This document shows, piece by piece, positions 1,569 to 13,668 of a stretch of DNA of 37,308 nt; position 1 is the first letter of the stretch, and each line of letters begins with the position of its first letter. Where the stretch lies: NCBI GenBank assembly GCA_000310025.1, contig FN649737.1, positions 2,937,982-2,975,289 of the forward strand, in the 5' to 3' direction. The stretch comes from Ectocarpus siliculosus (Eukaryota; Sar; Phaeophyceae; Ectocarpales; Ectocarpaceae). The notes below the pieces were generated by a model that did no database searches, was not told where the DNA came from, and saw nothing but the letters and a program-made list of their open reading frames with translations. Made by a program: the position numbers and the translations under genes.

Positions 1569-4500
1569 TCAACACTTGACAGTGAGCATGTAGCGGATGC
1601 GCTGTTGACTCTCCTTGTACACCTGCCATAATATATCCGTTCAGGGGGGAGGGAGGGAAAAAGTTAGCTGAGGTCGTCTCGAAGGCCGAAAATACCCAAC
1701 GTTCAACAGAAAGCTGGTAACGTTAACAGGTCCGGCATTGTCTCGAGGTCTACAAGGGGCGTAACTCACAACAGAAAAAAAGCATCAAAATGACGCTTCC
1801 GATTTCGAATAGCAACGTTGTTCATGTCCCTTTTGCGAGAGGCACCCGGTCATGGAAACCCTACCGTATACGACAAACAAGATAACACACCCCCTCGACC
1901 GATTTCAAAGCTCGATTGCGCCACGACGAAGAGGATGATAAACGAAACGATATATTTTCGGAAAGCTCTCGACGAGACGGGTTCAATGCTGCCGTTTTCG
2001 GCGCAGCGACTCTTTCTGCTGTTGAGAAATCGACATTTGAAAGTCGGTCCAGGGGGTGTGTTATCTTGTGCCGTAGTTGGTAAATACGAAATGTAGTTCT
2101 ATTAAGCGTCTGTCGTTGTCGTTGTCGTTGTCGTTGTCGTCGTCGTCACGCCAATGAGAGGAGGACACCGCCGTGTGCACACCACAACCAACAAATATCG
2201 CTCCCTCCCGTATTTTTTCAACGTCTTCCACCATCTCTCCCTCTCTCTTCGTCTCTCTCTCTCTCTCTTTCCCCCCCGCTCCTCTCTCTATAATATAGAT
2301 ATAGATATATCTCACCAGGTACTCGGAGTTGGAGAACCTAGAGCCCTTGTACTTGGGCTGGGTCTTAGGCTTGCCCTGAGGCACGCTAACCGACTTCCCG
2401 TCGATGGTGATGACGACATCCTTGGAAGGATCGGGCTCCTGCCACCCGCGCGCCACGATCGAGTCGTACCCCTTTTTCATCGGCACCGACAAATTGTTTT
2501 TCGGGAACCGATGGACACAAACAAGCGCGCACAAAAAAAAATGAGGGTAATTTCCGCGTCAGAGAAGCGCTAGGTTCGCAGGAGAGTCCCACATCGAGCG
2601 GGACCGTAGCGTTCGGAATCCACAAAAATTTCAACACTTGAAACGAAGCGAACAGAACAACAGGGCCTCGGTACCTCACGGCCACACGCGGAAAGACAGC
2701 CAGCCGCTCGATAGATTCGTCGACTGATGTCATTTGTTGACGAAACGTGATCCAAAAACAATCGCCAGGTCTTCGTGAGATGCTTCTCGTAAACACGTGA
2801 GCGGCCTCGTGTTAGAGGCGGAGAGTGGGGCGGGCAGACCCTTGAGAAGCAGCCGTTGACCGGTTTGCCGGACACGAGACACTCGCCGGACACTAGGACA
2901 CGGCACCATGCAAACGCCGTACATACCTTCGCCAACGATGGCTGATCTACGATACCCTGGACACAAAAAGGGTGCACCCTGGGAGCGAGCTATTGTTGCG
3001 GCTGGGAAGAGCCAAGGCATGTTCACCGCAATCATCACGAAAGAATCGGCTCTCCCGCAAGCTGACAAGCTTATCTTGTGATTTACGCAAATGTGCTAGA
3101 GCTACACCTTATAGCTACACAAGAGCTCGACAAGAGCACTCCACAAGAATAAAAGCCACACAATATGCAACCAACCCATTATCATCGGCGATGCCCACTG
3201 CACCTGGGGGGGCTTGGTGAGCTTCCAGTCGTCGACGGTGATGCTAGCCTCGTTGCCCAAGGCCGCTTCGCACAGGAACATGATGCCGAGGTTCACCCCG
3301 GGGCCCTTCGCCCCATACGCTGGGCGCACGTACTGACGGCTGCGCGAGAGCACGCAACGGGAACAAGAGAGCTCGATGAAAAAAGTTTACGTTTCCTGCT
3401 GCTGTTCATTTTTCTTTGTTTGTGGTGGTGGTTTGATGTCGGTGTAGTGACTGTTGAGGCATCGCGGTCGTTGGCGGTGTTTTCTCTCTTACATTATAAC
3501 ACACAAACGAATCCATTCGACGCTTATTGCGCCGCGTTTCTGTGTTTTAGGGTCGTGAGCATGCTGTCCTGGACAGGCGCGGGGGGTGCTCCCTTCCTGG
3601 TGTGCGAAGAACTGCGTGGAACTGGGTGGAACTGCGTGGAACTGCACATGCACCACCGGGTGCCCTACCCTATCATCCCTACCCACAGTGTTTCAATCTA
3701 ACACGCATACACCATCAGTGTCACCAGCGGAACTAACTCGTCTCATGTCACCTCTTCGCGTTCTCCGAGGCGAGGTAGATGCCCTTGCCCACGCGTCCGC
3801 CGCTGTGGGGCATGATGCGAAGCCCGCTCTTGACGATGGCGGCCACGACAGCGACTGATATTTCAAGTCAAGCGCAGCACGAAAGCAATGCAGCCAAGCA
3901 CAACCCGAAAGGAATGCATTGGTAACGGTGTGGTGTCATCAAGGACCGCCGATCAATGTCGTCTGCTGTTTCAAGCAGAGTTTTCCTACAGCCGGTTGTT
4001 GTTGCAGGCACGTTCCCCAAAGTTGTTGTTGTTGTTGAGGTCTCGTCCAGATGGGTGTGGTGTAGCGATCGGCCGAGTAGAAAAACACGTGTAGTTCATT
4101 TAGTGTGAGACGAAGTGTTTTTGCGAACAGCTTTCGGTGAGACATGTGGGGCAGCGGCAAGAGCAAGCAGCGAGGACGCCGTAGCGCTATCGCAGGATCG
4201 TCGACGGTAACGCTAACGGCGATGTTGCGATCCGCTGTGATGCTTTCTTCGTTGAGAAAAACACAAAACGGTAATTTCTACATATTTTGGCACAAATGAG
4301 CAGTACTACCACACCGGACGTCGGCCAACGAACTCAATCAACATGATCGAGCGCTGCCCCCCATCGGGCCCCCACTGAAATACATAACCAATCCCCTCAC
4401 CGTTGGTTCCGTGCCACAGAAGCTTGCGGTTGGTCATCTTATCGTGCGCCTTGAAGCGCTGCCCCTCACCCTCCCTGTCCACGGTCCAGACGTTAAACAG

Positions 4501-4605
4501 GTCCATGTCGCCGTAGCCTGGCTTGGTGTTCTCCAGATAGGTCCTGTTTCAAAGCGGTGGTTTGTTGTGGGTTATGGTGGTCTTACTGTTGCTTGCATTG
4601 TCTGC

Positions 4606-4659
<54 letters not shown>

Positions 4660-7094
4660 GTCGTCGCTGATGGATGATATATTTTCTAAGCCGAGGCGTT
4701 GTAAAGATTCGAAAGTGCTGGCGGGAAAAAGACAAAACACAAAACACCGCCTCTCCAGCCTTGCCTAGTTCTGGCCAGATCTCCTGGTCCAAACTTTTTC
4801 CACCTGTCGTGCGTTGCTACACATACCAATCAAGCCACTTTTGCCTCCCAGCACCAAACAAAAGTCTTCCGCTACAACAAAGCCAAAGTTCTCAGCACAA
4901 AAACAAATTTCCAACCTATTGATGTCCTTTGCGCTCCATCGCCACCGCCGACTCACTTGATGGCCTTGTGCTCGCTAGAGCCGGGCGAGACCAGCTTGAG
5001 GTCGGCGTTGAGGGCGGCGTAGTTCACGTCCGTGGGGTGCGGTACCGTCGGTATCTTTTCGGCACCCTTGCCCTTGCCCTTCTTGGTGCCGCTCGTAGAC
5101 GACAACAGGGTCTGCGCCTCGTCGATGTCCTGAAGGACGTTGAGCATCTCGACCTAGGGGTGCGATTGGGAGTATCCCCACGGCACGAAACCCCAAGGGG
5201 GAACAAAAGGTCAGGCCCAAGCGGCCGCAGTTTGGAACATAGGTGGTTGGCGGCTACCAGCAAAAACATCTCAACCGCCTGAAACCCACCAGCCCGTTTT
5301 TCCGACACTAGCGTACCCAACGATCGTCTTGGATTTCAGAACCACCGACTCCTCAGCCTTTGACTAGTTCTCCTCACATCACCAACATACTCTCTTGTCT
5401 GGTGTTGTCGGTAAAAGTCGTTTTTTTCTCCATGATAGATCTATCAGTCTCTCACCTTGTCGCGGAGCATGGTGTCCGTGTTGATCACCGGCGGCCTAGA
5501 GCGCCCGAAGGCGTGGGGAATCACCTGCCATTTCGTTTTTGTGTGTGTTGTGTGTGTGACGTGCGGCATGCGGCTGAGAACAGAGAACTGAATTGAAAAA
5601 CCGAATCGGTAACCCGATGCAGAAGAGAACATAAAAAGGTCCATATCGAGCACAGAAACTGTGTGTACCAAGCGTCGCTCACTCAAATAACCCACTCTGG
5701 TAAATATATTACAAATACTGAAACACATTTGACCCCGACGAGCACGTAGGATTGACTGTCTTGAATGCAAGAAGGAAACCAACGCGCCTCGTTTGTTTCT
5801 GTATTTTGTTCTCTTGTTTCGCGGTTTGGTCGGCCATGAGCTGCTGGCTTACCTGGTAAAACTTGGCTGAAAGCGTTTCCAGCAAGGCCGCCTTGTTCCT
5901 GCCCGTAGTCTTGAGCGCGTCCTCCAGTTCCTCAAGAACATCGTAGCCGCGCTGGACCTGTCGTCGTCATCGTTGTCGTTGTCGTTGTTGTTATTGTTGT
6001 TGCTGATGATGCCCGTGGCATAAGTTATTCTCCTTGTGCCAGAACCGGCGGACTTGACCGATCTACTTCGCCCTCATATCCCTACACACCCCAACCTAGG
6101 GTAGTGGCCACGACAACACCTAGCCCCCCTCCCCTACAACGCGCGTACGCAAGTCGCCGCTAACGCACCTGGGCACTGGAGAGCTGTCCCAGGGGCATCT
6201 TCTTGACGTCGATGTTCATCTTCGACATCGCAGACTTGAACATGTCCTCGCTGCAGCAAGAAGAACGAGAATGACGGACCGACAAGAGACAAAACGTTAC
6301 GGATGCATAAGAAACTATCAACAGAGAGGCGGTAAATAGTCAGTAGTCTTTGGCACTTTCGACACGCGGAGAGGGCGAGAAGAATGACACCATTGCCAAG
6401 CGTTCTCATCGTCACTATTGTCGCTGTTTTCGTTGCCGTGGTGGTCGATGTTGTCGTCGTTTCTTTGCTGCTACGGTACCACTGCCGATGATGTTCTTCT
6501 ATCGTGTCTAAAGCTCAACTCAGGCCCCGTCTCCGCGGTCAACAAAAACAAGCCAACACCTTCCGCAAACGCCGTGCTACTTGCTGCCACATACACAGCT
6601 CACCTAAAGATGAGCTCCACGAGCTCCTTGGTGGCGGGGTCGAGCGTCGACGGCAGCACCTTCGCGGGGCGGGCGGGGGAGGAGGGGCAGCCGCCGGCGG
6701 CAACCACGGCGGCGGCGGCGGTGGTGTCCGAGTTGTCTGTCTCGATGAGCTCGTACTTGCCGGGCACTGCCGTAAACTTGCCGTTCTGGGCGTCCTGCGG
6801 GGAGCCGGTGCGAAGTTGGGGGGCACGCAAAGCGCAAGGGGAAAGAGGGGTCGTTCGGGTGAGAATTGGGCAGCCTGACGGACGTGTGTTCGGTGCGTAT
6901 TTTGTAGACGACACACGCGCACAACAAAAAAAAACACCAACAAGAGGTCTCCGTGTGCCCTTTTTGCACCAGTCCCCAAAAACAATATCGGTACACCAAC
7001 AACGCCAGCACGAACAACAACGACCACGATGACGAACATCACCACCACCACCACCACCACCACCACAACGACAACGACAACAACAACACTGACG

Positions 7095-7146
<52 letters not shown>

Positions 7147-10100
7147 CGACAACGACAACGACAACAACAACAACAACAGCAACAACAGCAACAATATTAG
7201 TACCAACGACGACGACGACGACGACGATGACGACGACGACGACGATAACTACGATAACGACGCACCTCCCACTTGTTGCCCGACTTGTCCTTGAATTTCT
7301 TTGCGAAGGCCTTGGAAGCGTCGCTCTCGTCGCTGAAAGGACCCAGCTCAGCCATCGCCCCGAGCTCCCCCACACGGCCCCAGCGGCACCAGACGAAGTA
7401 GTTGTTGCGCCCGGCATCGCGGCACATCTGGAAAAACAGGAGGCGAAAAACAACAAACACCAGCGGATAACATTTCTCACATTCTCGATTTGTCTTTTTG
7501 AAAAACAGAGGTCCAATACAAAAACAGCAGCGGATACCATTCCTCGACAGTCTCGATTTGTTTGTCGACATGTTGAAATACGGAAGGCGAAGAACAACAA
7601 ACAGCAGGATATCGTATTCCTCCCTCAAAGCCTAGATTGTTGTTGTCTACATCTTGAAAAACAACAACCAGTCCCGGATGACATTCTCAACACCAGTCTA
7701 GATTAAGTTTGTCTACATCTTGAAAACCACAAGCACAAAAACAACAAACAGCAGCGATAATTCCTCCCTCAAGAGCCTCCATTTTTTCTTTTTTCTTGCG
7801 GTCTACCGGGCAGTGCCGGATGCTCGAGACGAGCGCGGTCACGACCTTGCGCACGAGCAAGCAATCCCCCCGAGGAGAGAGAGGGAGTGGTAAATCGTAG
7901 ACGCGACAGCACGCGTACGTCAACAGGTGCTACACGAAACGAAAGGGGGCGTGAAAACCTCCGTTTTCGGCGACCCCCACCCCCCTCTTTTGTCACCTGG
8001 AGGATGTAGAACTTGTTGTTGTTGTTGGCGATGTTGGTCTGGTTAAGCTTAGCGTCGTGCCCGGCGTGCACGGAAACGCCCTTGTTGCCGGCCTTCGGGC
8101 AGCACTTGTCGACCTCGGCGTTGGAGGCGGCGGGGGCGGGCGAGGGAGGGGCCGTAACGGAGACCGCGGCCTTGCCCTTGCCCTTTCCCTTACCCTTCGG
8201 GCCGAAGCCAGCGTAAGATAGCAAGCAGGCAAGAGGGCAAGAGGGGAACTGTAACGGACGGCTCGCTGGAAAAAAAAAAACGAAATGGTGGCTTCTCCTT
8301 GAGTGGTCTTCGTTGTCGACGATTGTGTGTCGGCGGGTACTCACAACCGACCGTGCATGCCGTAGTCGTTAGACCCTTGACCTCGCATAGCGGGAGGGGG
8401 GCGAGAGAACAAACAATAAACGATCCTTTGGAACCGGGAAAATTGCAAAGTTAATTGTCCTCTGCAGCGGGTGCACAGCAAGCAAATAGACTTACCCAAG
8501 GGATGTGTGATGAAGAACCAAGCACCGGACCACAACCAAGGAGAGCAAAAAAAGGAGGACGACACTGTTGTCTCGGCTGCACCGCATACCGCCACAACAA
8601 CTCCCCACCATGAACGAAGAACATACGACACGCACACAGCAGCCAACACAAGGCCGACGGGAGAGCAACAGCACAACCCCGCACCTTGCCCGTGGAAACC
8701 CCCGGAGGCGTGTTTGGCAGAGATTTCCCCGGGTTGCGGCGGATGTGGCGCATCTTCCGGTTGGGGTGAGCGACGTTGGTCTGGGTCATCAAAGCCAGGT
8801 CCACGAGGTACATGAACCTGCTCAGCATGCGTTTCGCAAACGCCGGCGGGCGGGGAGGGGGGAGGGGGGGGCACTCATGTAAACGCATGCTGTATGCGTA
8901 GTCGTTAGACCATGCGACCATGTGATCGAGGAGGGGGGGGCGTAGTTATTGCCGTGGATGGGTGAGCGAGCGAAAGGACGATGACTGCCGCTGTTTACAA
9001 GGCCTGCCATGGCTCTGATTGTCATTACCACATGGGAAAAGTTTGCCTGGCTACCAACTTGGGGGTTTTCAACCACAGAACATACGTGCGGACGGCCACC
9101 CGCCCACGCAATTCTTCATGAAGAACCAACAAATGTCGTCAGTCGAAGTGCAGACCTAGTTTTGGTGAAAACGTGATATCTAGTGTGTTCGTTGGTGCCA
9201 GGTAAGCTGGCCCTTCTCTCAGACAACTGCGAAATACCTACGGATGCTACACACACTATAATCTCCGCTGCGCACGATGCTACGGGATATGATGGATTCC
9301 ATCTTGCGCTTCTTTGCCAAAACAAAAGAACGACCTGTCATGATCTAGAACATAAATCAACCAATCCACCACTATTATAGATATTCCATTCGAAGCGACG
9401 CCGATTTTTTTTCTCACATTCCGCTGGTGACCACTCTCTGGCTCATCGATGGGTTGGTCTGGAACCTGCTCAAAAGGAACGTAGACAAAGGGTGACAGCA
9501 GTAGCGGGGACTCAAGTACGCGTACCACGTGTGCGTGTGGGGGTCCGTACTTGTTTCTTACAACGGGCTATGCGACCGCTATAACCTGGCACGCACACAC
9601 CAACACGGTTCGAAACAAAAAACGCCGCACATGAATACCCCGTGCCTGAGCGGCTCCAGTTCCTACAGCCGCGGCACCGTCACTGCCATCGTAATCGCAC
9701 CCTCGAGGGGAGGGGGGGGGGGGGGGGCTCAAGACTCACTCTGTGTTGAGCTGCTCCACGACAATCGCGGCGCTGTCGTCGTAGTCGTACCAGCCGTCGG
9801 TTTTCCCTGAGAGGGGGTTCAAGTGTCCAGGGGACACACACGATGACGGGATTGACGGTGCAGGAAAGCGGAAGTAAGACAAACGAGCGCAAGGTCGTAG
9901 CCATGGAGGGCGTGTGTGTAGTAGCACACACCGCACGGCTTGGTGCGTGCGTCTGGCCGAGGAGCGTGCCATGCTGGGTTTCCTTGGAAGATGGGGAAGC
10001 TTGTTCCTTTTTTCTCTCCTCCAAGGGGGGAGGTTGCTTAGAAACAGAAACTGATCCCTTCCTTACACTTCCCCAGCAGATTGGTCCTCCATGTAACCAT

Positions 10101-13100
10101 GTGTGGGCAGGCAGACAAACAAGCACGTGGCACTTTCTCATGGGATGGATATCTCGCACGCGAGTGTGAGTAAAACTTTGGTGCAACATGGCCGGAACAG
10201 CAGTACACGTGAGAAGAAGGGACCCTGGGACCATACGTCATTCTTGTCTTTGTTTCAAAATGAAACGGAATAACGTCGGAATAACGTCGACGGCAAGGCG
10301 CACGGGCGGCCGGTTCGTTCTCACCGTCGATGTTGTCGTCGACCCAGTACTCCCACGTTTCCGCCTGGACCTGGGAAGCGTTGGGGCGAAGGCACTTGTA
10401 CTTGCCTGGCGTGGCGCCGCCCGCGAGCAAACGAGAGATTGACATCATCGCCAAAACGAAACAAGTGAAGTCAACCGCCTGTCAGCAGTAATAGTGATAG
10501 GGACAAACACCCAACACCAGCACTACTAACAGCGGCGGCAAGGCCAAAAAACAGCAAAAACAGCGGCAGCAGTGGCGGCAACAACAACCATAGTAGTATC
10601 CATCGACACACCTTCCTTGCGGTTTCTGCGTAGCTTGTGTCATATTTCGTGGCCGATCAAGTACACGGCAGACGACGAACAACAGACGAGGTCTTGAACA
10701 ACACCCCTTCTCAACAACCCGTTTCCGAACCACAACGCCACGTTCACTGCAAGCATCCCCCCCGCATGGGTGGCGGCAGCCCAAGAAAGCACTACTACTG
10801 CTGCACCAGAACTTTGTAAGTCAGGATCAAAACCACGCGCCTTTGTTGACAACGTAGCGGTCCTCGTGGTCGTCCACGTCCCACTCGTTCGCCGTCTTCT
10901 CCTCGAACTTGGCGGCGAAGAGAGCCGAGGCCTCGTCGATGGTGTCGAAGGGGCCCTCCAGCTTGCCCTGGCCAGAGGTACCGGTACGCCCCCAACGGGT
11001 GAAGAAGTAGAACTGCCGGTCGGGCAAGGCGGGGGGGGGGGGGGGGGGGGGGGCCCCCTTTTTTGGTTGGGGGGAATCTTTTGACCATTAACCCCCCCCC
11101 CTTTTTGGAAGGGGGCCCCCTTCCCCCCCCTCTAAAAAAACCCCCCACATTTTGGGGGCCTTTTTTTTTTTCCCCCAAAACCTCAAAAAAATTTTTGGGC
11201 CATTTTTTCCCCGCCCCCAGGGGGCNNNNNNNNNNNNNNNNNNNNNNNNNNNNNNNNNNNNNNNNNNNNNNNNNNNNNNNNNNNNNNNNNNNNNNNNNNN
11301 NNNNNNNNNNNNNNNNNNNNNNNNNNNNNNNNNNNNNNNNNNNNNNNNNNNNNNNNNNNNNNNNNNNNNNNNNNNNNNNNNNNNNNNNNNNNNNNNNNNN
11401 NNNNNNNNNNNNNNNNNNNNNNNNNNNNNNNNNNNNNNNNNNNNNNNNNNNNNNNNNNNNNNNNNNNNNNNNNNNNNNNNNNNNNNNNNNNNNNNNNNNN
11501 NNNNNNNNNNNNNNNNNNNNNNNNNNNNNNNNNNNNNNNNNNNNNNNNNNNNNNNNNNNNNNNNNNNNNNNNNNNNNNNNNNNNNNNNNNNNNNNNNNNN
11601 NNNNNNNNNNNNNNNNNNNNNNNNNNNNNNNNNNNNNNNNNNNNNNNNNNNNNNNNNNNNNNNNNNNNNNNNNNTGACCATTGACCTCGCATCCCTACAA
11701 AGCCGGGACGGAGCACGCCGGGTTCTCACCGGACCAGGCTCTCACATCACCAAGCGCGAAGCGCCGTGAGGTATTTGGCGAGTCGCATGAAGGGTGAGCT
11801 GCATCCTGCTAAGGGTGTTCGGCATCTTGTGCTTACTTCCTTGCGTACGGATGACAGCTACGTATGACTTAATTTATTTTCTGGTGCTTTCACTTCCAGA
11901 GACAGTTGTAAGCACTGTGTAACTGCCTCGAGGAAGCTTGACCATTTTAACACAACGTGGTGCGATCATCCCCCGTTGCGCGGAGTGAGGGTTCTCGACC
12001 CCGCACAACATGATCTACTCGACCACCATTATGGTTACCGCCAAAAAAAAAACGAGGTAAAAAAAAAAATGGTAACCTGCTTGCCGAATTCACGAAGTGA
12101 ATTGGCTTGTTTTACAACGTCGTTGCCAAGCGCCGAAAACCCAACCCCGATGGCAAACACCGAGTGGGGGGAAACACCGAGTGGGGGGGGGGGATTGTCA
12201 CGAAGGACTTTCGTCGTCGTCCTCAGACCGTACTGGTGCTGCGTACCACCACCACCACCACCGCCACCGTATGTATCGTGCACGGGCGGCGGTTCAAACC
12301 GCTGTTCCCTGATTGGTCCGCACGTTCTCGAGGCGGCAGGAGGGGGCAAACGAGAACATGCCCCAGCCAGCAACACCTTTGGCGCCACGTTCGGCTACAC
12401 GAGATTTTTTTATTGTATCCGTCCTAGCTTTTACCAACTCTTCCTTCTGGGCCGTCCCCCCGAGGACCTTAGCTCCTCGAAACCGTTCGAGGCACGGAGG
12501 GGGGAGACGCAAACGAACCAACAGGAGCCGCCGCCAAAACTTCCAGCCCCTGACGACGAAGTCCAAGACAATAAATACTCTACGGGGGGAGGTGATGATT
12601 TGACGCCTTTTCTCAGTTGCAAAAACAAAAAAAACTCTTCACCTGGTCCGTGGCCGACGTGGAGGAGCCCTTGGCGGTCTTAGCCTTCTTCTTGGACGAG
12701 CCTGCGGGCTCGAGAATCACCTGGAGAACGAAGTACCTGACGGAAGACGTTGATGCGAGGGTTTTCGCGAGAACGGCTCCACGGGTTATAGGATAAGACG
12801 TTGATGCGAGCGTTTTCGCGAGAACGGCGGGTACGCAGACGTACACGGGTTAGGTTAAGCGTAGAAAGGCGGAGTGAAGGAGCGAGAGCGTGTCTGCGAA
12901 AAATGCGGGGGGAAAAGCTTGGGAGAATCGCTTCAGTGGACAAATGTGTTCCGTGCACGTGGGTCATATGCGTATCACATCGGAACAACGGCAGGAGAAG
13001 CAGCAGCAGCAGCCGCGGCAGCAGCAGGTGCCATGTACACACAAGCACACAAATTGCACGGGATGGCATGAGTGACGTCGGATCGGAGCTGGCTCTTCAG

Positions 13101-13668
13101 CTGAGGAAAGGCGAGGCCCAGCGCAAGAACACCAACCAAGCCAAGCTTAACACAAATCATGCAGGCCAGCACACAAACGAAATACTTCATAACAGCTAAC
13201 TCACTTGTCCATGTTCTTCTTCACGTCGATCAGGGTCAGCATCGCGTCCAGCTCCTCGTCCTCGTCCTCCGCCTCCGCCAGAATGGCATCGTCGCTCAGG
13301 CCGGCCGCGGGGTCGACCTTGCCCACCTTGCCGGTCGCCGGGCTCGGCGCAGCGTGGCCCTTGAGCCCCCGCTTTCCGGTGGCAGGCGCAGCGGTCTTCT
13401 TACCCTTGGCCGCCGAGGCTGCCTTTTTAGCAGGGGCTGCCTTTTTAGCTGGGGCTGCCTTTTTAGCTGGTGCTGCCTTTTTAGCAGGGGCTGCCTTTTT
13501 AGTAGGGGCTGCCTTTTTAGCAGGGGCTGCCTTCTTGGCGACCTTTTTCTTCGCAGCAGCAGCAGTCGCCGCGGGCTTCTTCTTGGACACCGCGGTCTTC
13601 TTAGCGGCGGCAGACTTCTTGACTCCGGCGGCAGGCCTCTTAGTAACGGCGGCGCGGGTAGAGCCCAT
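1569..13668 (-). CDS. PARP: Poly(ADP-ribose) polymerase, PARP3-like, with WGR-WWE-WGR architecture
   Basis: This enzyme transfers ADP-ribose from NAD+ to proteins, and in the PARP1/2/3 class is activated by DNA breaks; a nuclear location is inferred. The spliced product is 884 residues. Residues 1-154 are Lys/Ala-rich, with AAPAKK-type hexapeptides at about 47-84 and an acidic patch at 131-141. WGR1 spans about 152-250 (RWGRTG at 192-197). A WWE domain spans about 257-336 (W261, GWYDY 275-279, MTQTN 319-323, IRR 334-336). WGR2 spans about 400-490 (NNNNKFYILQ ending at 419, RWGRVGE from 434). The helical regulatory domain is about 535-660 (DVKKMPLGQLS, FYQVIPHAFG). The catalytic domain is about 670-884, with H732 in LLWHGTN, Y762 in GKGIYLASEN and E865 in FSNSEYL, so the H-Y-E triad of polymer-forming PARPs is intact. 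The motifs LNQTNI and VVAAI-SGLRIMPHSGGRVGKGIY match animal PARP3 closely (known family sequence). The start at 13668 is chosen because the basic tail begins there; an in-frame ATG at 13746 is the alternative. Confidence 0.93.
1864..2084. mobile_element. MITE-like inverted-repeat element, family 1 (copy in last PARP intron)
   Basis: The ends are near-perfect inverted repeats. GATAACACACCCCCTCGACC at 1881 matches the reverse complement of the right end, where GGGGGTGTGTTATC ends at about 2065. Similarity extends outward to about 1864 and 2084. The interior is roughly 150 bp with no coding capacity. It lies wholly inside the last PARP intron (1623-2315). Two further family members are at 27652-28077 and 29184-29430. 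No transposase source is in the window, and target-site duplications are unclear. Confidence 0.75.
2108..2148. repeat. (GTCGTT)n / (GTC)n tract
   Basis: A hexamer repeat that decays into GTC triplets, inside the last PARP intron. Confidence 0.85.
2231..2286. repeat. CT-rich low-complexity tract
   Basis: An imperfect (CT)n tract just inside the last PARP intron, about 25 bp from the donor at 2315. On the PARP sense strand it is GA-rich. Confidence 0.8.
4600..4664. repeat. Compound GCT/GTT/GTG triplet repeat
   Basis: Runs of GCT, GTT and GGT triplets inside PARP intron 14 (4544-4956). On the PARP sense strand it reads AAC/ACC, the opposite of the usual orientation in this window. Confidence 0.85.
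7037..7257. repeat. Long compound CAC/AAC/GAC triplet repeat in a PARP intron
   Basis: About 220 bp of almost pure triplets: CAC, then AAC, then GAC on the plus strand. It starts only about 10 bp inside the intron, next to the donor of the exon ending at 7266. On the sense strand it reads GTC, GTT then GTG. The long Thr-, Asn- and Val-rich open frames across it are repeat artefacts, not genes. Confidence 0.95.
7441..7790. repeat. Imperfect 60-80 bp tandem repeat in PARP intron 8
   Basis: Four or five degenerate copies share AACAACAAACAGCAG, a CATTCCTC or ATTCCTCCCTC block, TCTCGATTTGTTTGT-like sequence and CATCTTGAAAA. Read on the PARP sense strand, the last block is TTTTCAAGATGT. That resembles the real 3' splice site at 7428 (TTTTTCCAG|ATGT), so the array may have grown from acceptor sequence. 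Confidence 0.7.
8338..8395. repeat. Dispersed repeat family 3, partial copy
   Basis: Contains the family core GTGCATGCCGTAGTCGTTAG followed by ACCTCGCAT, then breaks off at a G-rich run. It lies in PARP intron 7. Related copies are at 8871, 11675, 21092, 26265 and 31905. Confidence 0.65.
8871..8940. repeat. Dispersed repeat family 3, partial copy
   Basis: Begins after a G-run with CACTCATG, then GCGTAGTCGTTAGACCATG, and ends in another G-run. It lies in PARP intron 6, just beyond the polypyrimidine side of the exon starting at 8817. Confidence 0.6.
11032..11674. other. Assembly gap with degraded flank
   Basis: Positions 11226-11674 are 449 N. The roughly 190 bp before the gap (11032-11225) consist of stretched homopolymers of G, C, T and A, unlike any other part of the window, and look like the low-quality end of a read. 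The gap falls in PARP intron 2, so no coding exon needs to be missing: exons 2 and 3 join in frame. Confidence 0.9.
11675..11870. repeat. Dispersed repeat family 3, copy truncated by the gap
   Basis: Starts at the gap edge with CATTGACCTCGCATCCCTAC, then continues through CGGGTTCTCACCGG to GTGCTTACTTCCTTGCGTAC. It is almost identical to 31938-32121 over about 180 bp, differing by a few substitutions and a one-base insertion. The near-identity implies recent spread. Confidence 0.85.
12747..12830. repeat. Direct repeat in PARP intron 1
   Basis: Two copies of GACGTTGATGCGAG followed by GTTTTCGCGAGAACGGC, about 53 bp apart, lie directly upstream of the acceptor of exon 2 (12736). One base differs between copies. 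Confidence 0.85.
13411..13550. repeat. 18-bp tandem repeat coding for the AAPAKK tail of PARP
   Basis: About seven copies of an 18-bp unit (plus strand GGGGCTGCCTTTTTAGC) encode the hexapeptide AAPAKK in exon 1 of PARP. Synonymous and T/A variants distinguish copies. The unit is in frame, so copy number can change without breaking the gene. Confidence 0.95.

Follow-up and report, generated by a model that had tools for sequence, protein, structure and literature searches.

The stretch of DNA analysed here (the window) comprises 37,308 nucleotides of contig FN649737.1 of the brown alga Ectocarpus siliculosus (assembly GCA_000310025.1, positions 2,937,982 to 2,975,289 of the forward strand) and carries on its minus strand a gene for a predicted PARP3-type ADP-ribosyltransferase, in which a Lys/Ala-rich tail, a first WGR domain (WGR1), a WWE domain, a second WGR domain (WGR2), a regulatory domain (REG) and a catalytic domain (CAT) follow one another from N- to C-terminus (Table 1). 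The spliced product has 884 residues and a single terminal stop, all 18 junctions are in phase, and the 18 introns measure 211–1630 bases (median 469.5), with GT-AG splice sites in 17 and GC-AG in intron 3. A preliminary description made from the sequence alone had proposed an in-phase product of this length and domain order, and the 19-exon model agrees with it to the base at both ends. Its prediction of WGR, WWE, PARP_reg and PARP profiles was likewise borne out, with all four above their Pfam cut-offs in a search run on an 894-residue, 20-exon version of the model: WGR scored 120.8 bits over two stretches together (best at residues 400–478; cut-off 22 for the segment with WGR1 alone), the WWE expected within residues 257–336 was found there (37.0 bits when its segment was searched alone), and PARP matched at 681–893, which is 681–883 in the 884-residue numbering. 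REG and CAT each matched in one stretch with no second copy by Pfam, unlike the oomycete PARP with a duplicated WGR-REG-CAT. Up to E 1, Pfam found neither zf-PARP nor BRCT, the N-terminal parts of PARP1, in this protein, and an NCBIfam search of it gave no match.

Table 1. Features of the PARP3-type gene and its surroundings, in window coordinates.
Feature	Positions	Strand	Basis
Whole gene, 19 exons, 884-aa PARP3-type protein; ATG at 13668, TGA ending at 1569	1569..13668	-	In-phase splice model
Lys/Ala-rich basic tail, residues 1–101	13366..13668	-	Composition; HC2 below cut-off
18-base tandem repeat, 6.5 copies, encoding K/A hexapeptides	13417..13533	-	Tandem Repeats Finder
WGR1, residues about 147–250, exons 1–4	10386..13230	-	Pfam WGR, 55.7 bits; alignment
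WWE, residues 261–336, exons 4–7	8736..10355	-	Pfam, 32.7 bits (cut-off 21.1); alignment
WGR2, residues about 396–490, exons 8–10, adjoining the regulatory domain	6744..8068	-	Pfam WGR at 400–478; alignment
Regulatory (helical) domain, residues 522–666	5022..6650	-	Pfam PARP_reg, 143.5 bits
Catalytic domain, residues 681–883, triad H732, Y762, E865	1575..4979	-	Pfam PARP, 142.6 bits; PARP3/PARP2 alignment
Exon 8, opening WGR2, no ATG in its open frame, hence internal	7997..8194	-	Frame reading
Run of 449 N in intron 2, low-complexity flank	11226..11674	.	Sequence
Candidate 30-base exon, rejected; phase fits, no counterpart in homologues	2927..2956	-	Phase; comparison with homologues

The two versions of the model differ by one candidate exon of 10 amino acids (exon 18 of 20), which was left out because it lacks a counterpart in human PARP3 and in four myxobacterial relatives; without it the phase still holds. 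Both WGR domains, the WWE and the PARP core most likely belong to one product. Exon 4 encodes the last strand of WGR1 (GKYKCLR) together with the first strand of the WWE (WEYWVDD), and exon 7 runs in phase to a GT donor, followed by a 490-base gap to exon 8 that is close to the gene's median intron length. It is improbable that two adjacent genes, a separate PARP3 gene and one for a short basic-tailed protein of WGR and WWE, were wrongly joined here. The join of exons 7 and 8 does fall in a low-complexity linker, with a plain acceptor and no domain across it, and the joined transcript is a prediction from the gene model; against this, the frame of exon 8 is open and free of ATG over 58 upstream codons and its own 66, and an upstream exon is therefore needed. 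The nearest in-frame starts, at codon 1 of exon 9 or 48 codons upstream of that exon, would remove the first strand of WGR2 and with it Asn411, Asn413 and Lys414.

The run of N sits between the two halves of WGR1, and a scaffold artefact, in which the tail and the first WGR1 strand (exons 1–2) were misjoined across it and the true N-terminus differs, would be compatible with the low-complexity flanks and with the score of that first strand alone, which is not significant (−0.8 bits). We regard such an artefact as very improbable, however, since phase is 0 on both sides of the run, exons 2 and 3 complete one WGR with the first-strand Asn and Lys in place, and the core of WGR1, the WWE, WGR2, REG and CAT all lie on one side of it and would be unaffected. 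Two further features of the surrounding DNA may be recorded: runs of C, G and A that adjoin the N run (window 11013–11225) and resemble a low-quality contig end, and an imperfect ACA triplet repeat of 130 bases (window 7065–7194) in the intron between exons 9 and 10, within WGR2. Of the 137 open reading frames of the window, 30 were scanned for neighbouring genes, and none matched a Pfam profile at an E value of 0.01 or lower.

By its WGR-REG-CAT order, its match scores, its identity and its place in a tree, the enzyme is, as far as sequence can tell, of the PARP3 type. The best match of known structure was human PARP3 (357.5 bits, against 239.3 for PARP2 and 221.9 for PARP1), and catalytic identity reached 52.9% to human PARP3 over 350 aligned residues compared with 33.6% to PARP2 over 339. 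The H-Y-E triad (H732, Y762 and E865) aligns with those of human PARP3 and PARP2, and the loop before GKGIY lacks four residues relative to PARP2, a shortening shared with PARP3. In a tree of eight rows, six PARP3-like sequences were set apart from PARP2 with moderate support (81/92). Human PARP3 thus shares with the Ectocarpus protein the domain order of the core, the triad and the short loop, and its WGR is 51.2% identical to WGR2. Full-length human PARP3 differs from it in having a single WGR and in lacking both a WWE and a long Lys/Ala tail.

The functional residues of the WGR fold are best described in PARP2, where N127, K130, W151, R153, K183 and Y201 are reported to contact the DNA end and N129 to pass the signal to the regulatory domain, the N129A mutant being inactive with its DNA affinity kept (PMC8190142). 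All seven DNA-contact and signalling residues are conserved in WGR2. In WGR1, six of the seven are kept (N152, K155, W193, R195, K225 and Y246, corresponding to PARP2 N127, K130, W151, R153, K183 and Y201), and the position of the relay residue N129 is occupied by Asp154 rather than Asn. WGR1 also carries a Lys/Ser-rich insert, encoded by exon 2, between its first two strands. Its identity is 28.6% to WGR2 and 30–34% to human and PARP3-like bacterial WGRs; being no closer to WGR2 than to other WGRs, it does not appear to be a recent copy of it. In PARP2 and PARP3, a single WGR both holds the DNA end and triggers catalysis. Mutants that lose bridging are reported to be inactive as well, and a break is described as bridged by a pair of WGRs contributed by two PARP2 molecules (PMC7608914). 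Here, both WGRs stand in a single chain, and we suggest, on our own account, that WGR1 may hold a DNA end without activating the enzyme.

In the WWE domain of RNF146, the AMP part of iso-ADP-ribose is reported to be held by Y107, Y144, Q153 and R163 (PMC8853533). Y312, Q321 and R332 of the Ectocarpus protein correspond to Y144, Q153 and R163 and are invariant in the six WWEs aligned. The best match of known structure was the WWE of PARP11 (20.8 bits, E 0.0033), for which a preference for terminal ADP-ribose is reported (PMC10450202). The WWEs of PARP11 and RNF146 share the Pfam profile and the AMP-pocket Tyr, Gln and Arg with the Ectocarpus domain, whereas the latter has longer first and middle loops, a counterpart of Y107 that depends on the alignment register, and a connection to DNA-sensing WGRs instead of to a bare ADP-ribosyltransferase domain or a RING. 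Binding of ADP-ribose by this WWE is likely on these grounds; the reading of chains is uncertain. The preliminary idea of a protein that could sense DNA ends and read ADP-ribose is therefore a fair one as regards the conserved WGR contact and WWE pocket residues, with chain reading as the part left in doubt.

The N-terminal tail contains 29 Lys, 3 Arg and 39 Ala and neither Asp nor Glu. Its likeness to histone H1, as first described, goes no further than composition, as no globular linker-histone domain was found in it and its sole Pfam match, HC2, reached 15.7 bits where the cut-off is 40. The basic N-terminus of PARP2, reported as the source of most of its DNA affinity (PMC8190142) and also as binding poly(ADP-ribose), offers by analogy a precedent for what this tail might do.

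Taken together, we favour, with a probability of roughly 60%, a break-activated ADP-ribosyltransferase of the PARP3 type that has a second, binding-only WGR, a reader of ADP-ribose and a tail lying on DNA or chromatin. From the in-phase gene model, the domains, the homology and the residue conservation observed in this analysis, we infer the steps of binding, activation and localisation as follows. WGR2 would bind a 5′-phosphorylated DNA end and, through Asn413, unfold the regulatory helices and free the active site, as in PARP2 and PARP3. WGR1 would serve as a second binder of DNA ends or nicks, presumably unable to relay activation because its relay Asn is Asp154. The WWE would dock on ADP-ribose that the break already carries, in the form of terminal units or iso-ADP-ribose. 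With the Lys/Ala tail keeping the enzyme on DNA or chromatin, writing would be reinforced at sites already marked.

Several points weigh against this proposal. On the side of the gene, a single transcript is predicted from the gene model alone, intron 3 has GC-AG ends and intron 2 contains the N run; the weakest join is that of exons 7 and 8, spanned by no domain and with a weakly placed acceptor. On the side of the reader, the column of RNF146 Y107 holds Asp266 in the MAFFT alignment, with Tyr263 or Trp264 taking the position if the register is shifted by one to three residues, so that the pocket is only partly confirmed; RNF146 is absent from the four PDB matches of the WWE up to E 1. Should the enzyme add single ADP-ribose units only, the iso-ADP-ribose would have to be made by a different PARP, and searches of the organism's own genome (189 Mb) found two WGR and three PARP_reg matches, all within this gene and none in any other. 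These searches were read exon by exon, so that genes split into exons can be missed and absences are provisional. HPF1 and PARG likewise gave no match in the genome, a result to be read as uncontrolled since the controls gave none either.

The same searches returned four PARP catalytic matches, one in this gene and three elsewhere, two of the latter with an internal stop. Two catalytic fragments (G000:C472:345091-345237, L005, and C12:535451-535660, L004) lack WGR and REG matches and have one in-frame stop each; the former (YHGSSPENFHSILNTGLR) resembles PARP6/8/16. Up to E 1 there were three WWE matches in the genome, one being the last WWE exon of this gene, which as a lone exon falls below the cut-off. 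One macro match was found, and an ADP-ribosylglycohydrolase on C2 gave three matches within about 3.2 kb. A zinc-finger PARP1 was considered and rejected: the sole zf-PARP match (on C16, 32 bits, cut-off 39.3) adjoins helicase-like motifs that we take to be of the SNF2 type, and this finger upstream of helicase motifs (G000:C16:613585-613746, L022 and L023) may mark a finger-helicase gene rather than a PARP. The genome may thus contain just one PARP that depends on DNA breaks. A more far-reaching scheme is one of single-chain synapsis with writing and reading, in which the two WGRs would hold both ends of one break, the relay-less one binding only and the other activating, the WWE would lock on to fresh ADP-ribose, and the genome's only DNA-dependent PARP would do the work of PARP1, PARP2 and PARP3; we consider this doubtful.

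An alignment scan of genome contigs yielded five bacterial loci, of which the four examined (L017-L020) are from Myxococcota; the fifth (L021, Clostridium, 27% identity) lies outside the counts given here. The myxobacterial proteins are PARP3-like with WGR-REG-CAT and 51.9–58.0% catalytic identity to the Ectocarpus enzyme, but all four have one WGR and no WWE. The open reading frame at 4419–6383 of L019 (Paraliomyxa miuraensis) is PARP3-like with a Lys/Ala-rich tail resembling that of the algal gene. At L017:4914-7866 and L018:4884-7876, a PARP3-like gene is followed directly on the same strand by a divergent WGR-REG-PARP gene, forming a two-PARP pair; two PARP genes were counted in only one bacterium in the text of Perina et al. 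2014. Two scans of viral contigs (2 and 237 candidate stretches) confirmed no relative, and a protein-query scan of genome contigs gave 37 candidates with none confirmed.

Among eukaryotes, PARP2 homologues of non-mammalian animals are reported to carry a WWE N-terminal to WGR-REG-CAT (Perina et al. 2014), as in the Ectocarpus protein, so that the division drawn in the preliminary description between WGR in PARP1/2/3 and WWE in other PARPs is not strict. Those homologues have a PARP2-type catalytic domain, and the text mentions no second WGR, whereas the algal protein is closer to PARP3. PiPARP1 of Phytophthora infestans is described as PARP3-related and, like the algal protein, has multiple WGRs in its chain; there, the entire WGR-REG-CAT is doubled, and WWE has no occurrence in the main text, whereas the algal protein has one REG and one CAT. 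Such a duplication, said to be confined to stramenopiles, raises the alternative that WGR1 and the WWE are leftovers and only WGR2-REG-CAT works, as a PARP3, the N-terminal module either drifting or remaining from a tandem duplication of the oomycete kind after loss of the first REG-CAT. The low identity of WGR1 to WGR2, its lack of the relay Asn and the absence of such a module from all four bacterial PARP3 relatives are consistent with this. Yet drift would not preserve six of seven WGR1 residues at DNA-contact positions together with three residues of the WWE pocket, Pfam detects no second REG or CAT, and the identity of WGR1 to WGR2 does not exceed that to human or bacterial WGRs; we hold this alternative to be unlikely.

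Citarelli et al. 2010 (PMC2964712) are reported to have found no PARPs in brown algae, and no description of the order WGR-WWE-WGR-REG-CAT was met in the literature text searched, from which architectures drawn only in figures could escape. The component domains are already known; what appears to be new is their combination, the Asp at the relay position of WGR1 and the three conserved pocket residues of the WWE. In the binding-only reading of WGR1 that we prefer, the relay-less domain is the point most worth testing. A naturally occurring protein in which one WGR can relay the signal and the other lacks the relay could uncouple the holding of DNA ends from activation. An ADP-ribose reader within a break-activated writer would likewise provide a natural test of feed-forward ADP-ribosylation. 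This unusual mix of known parts suggests that the sensing of a break and the reading of the signal placed at it could fall to one and the same protein.

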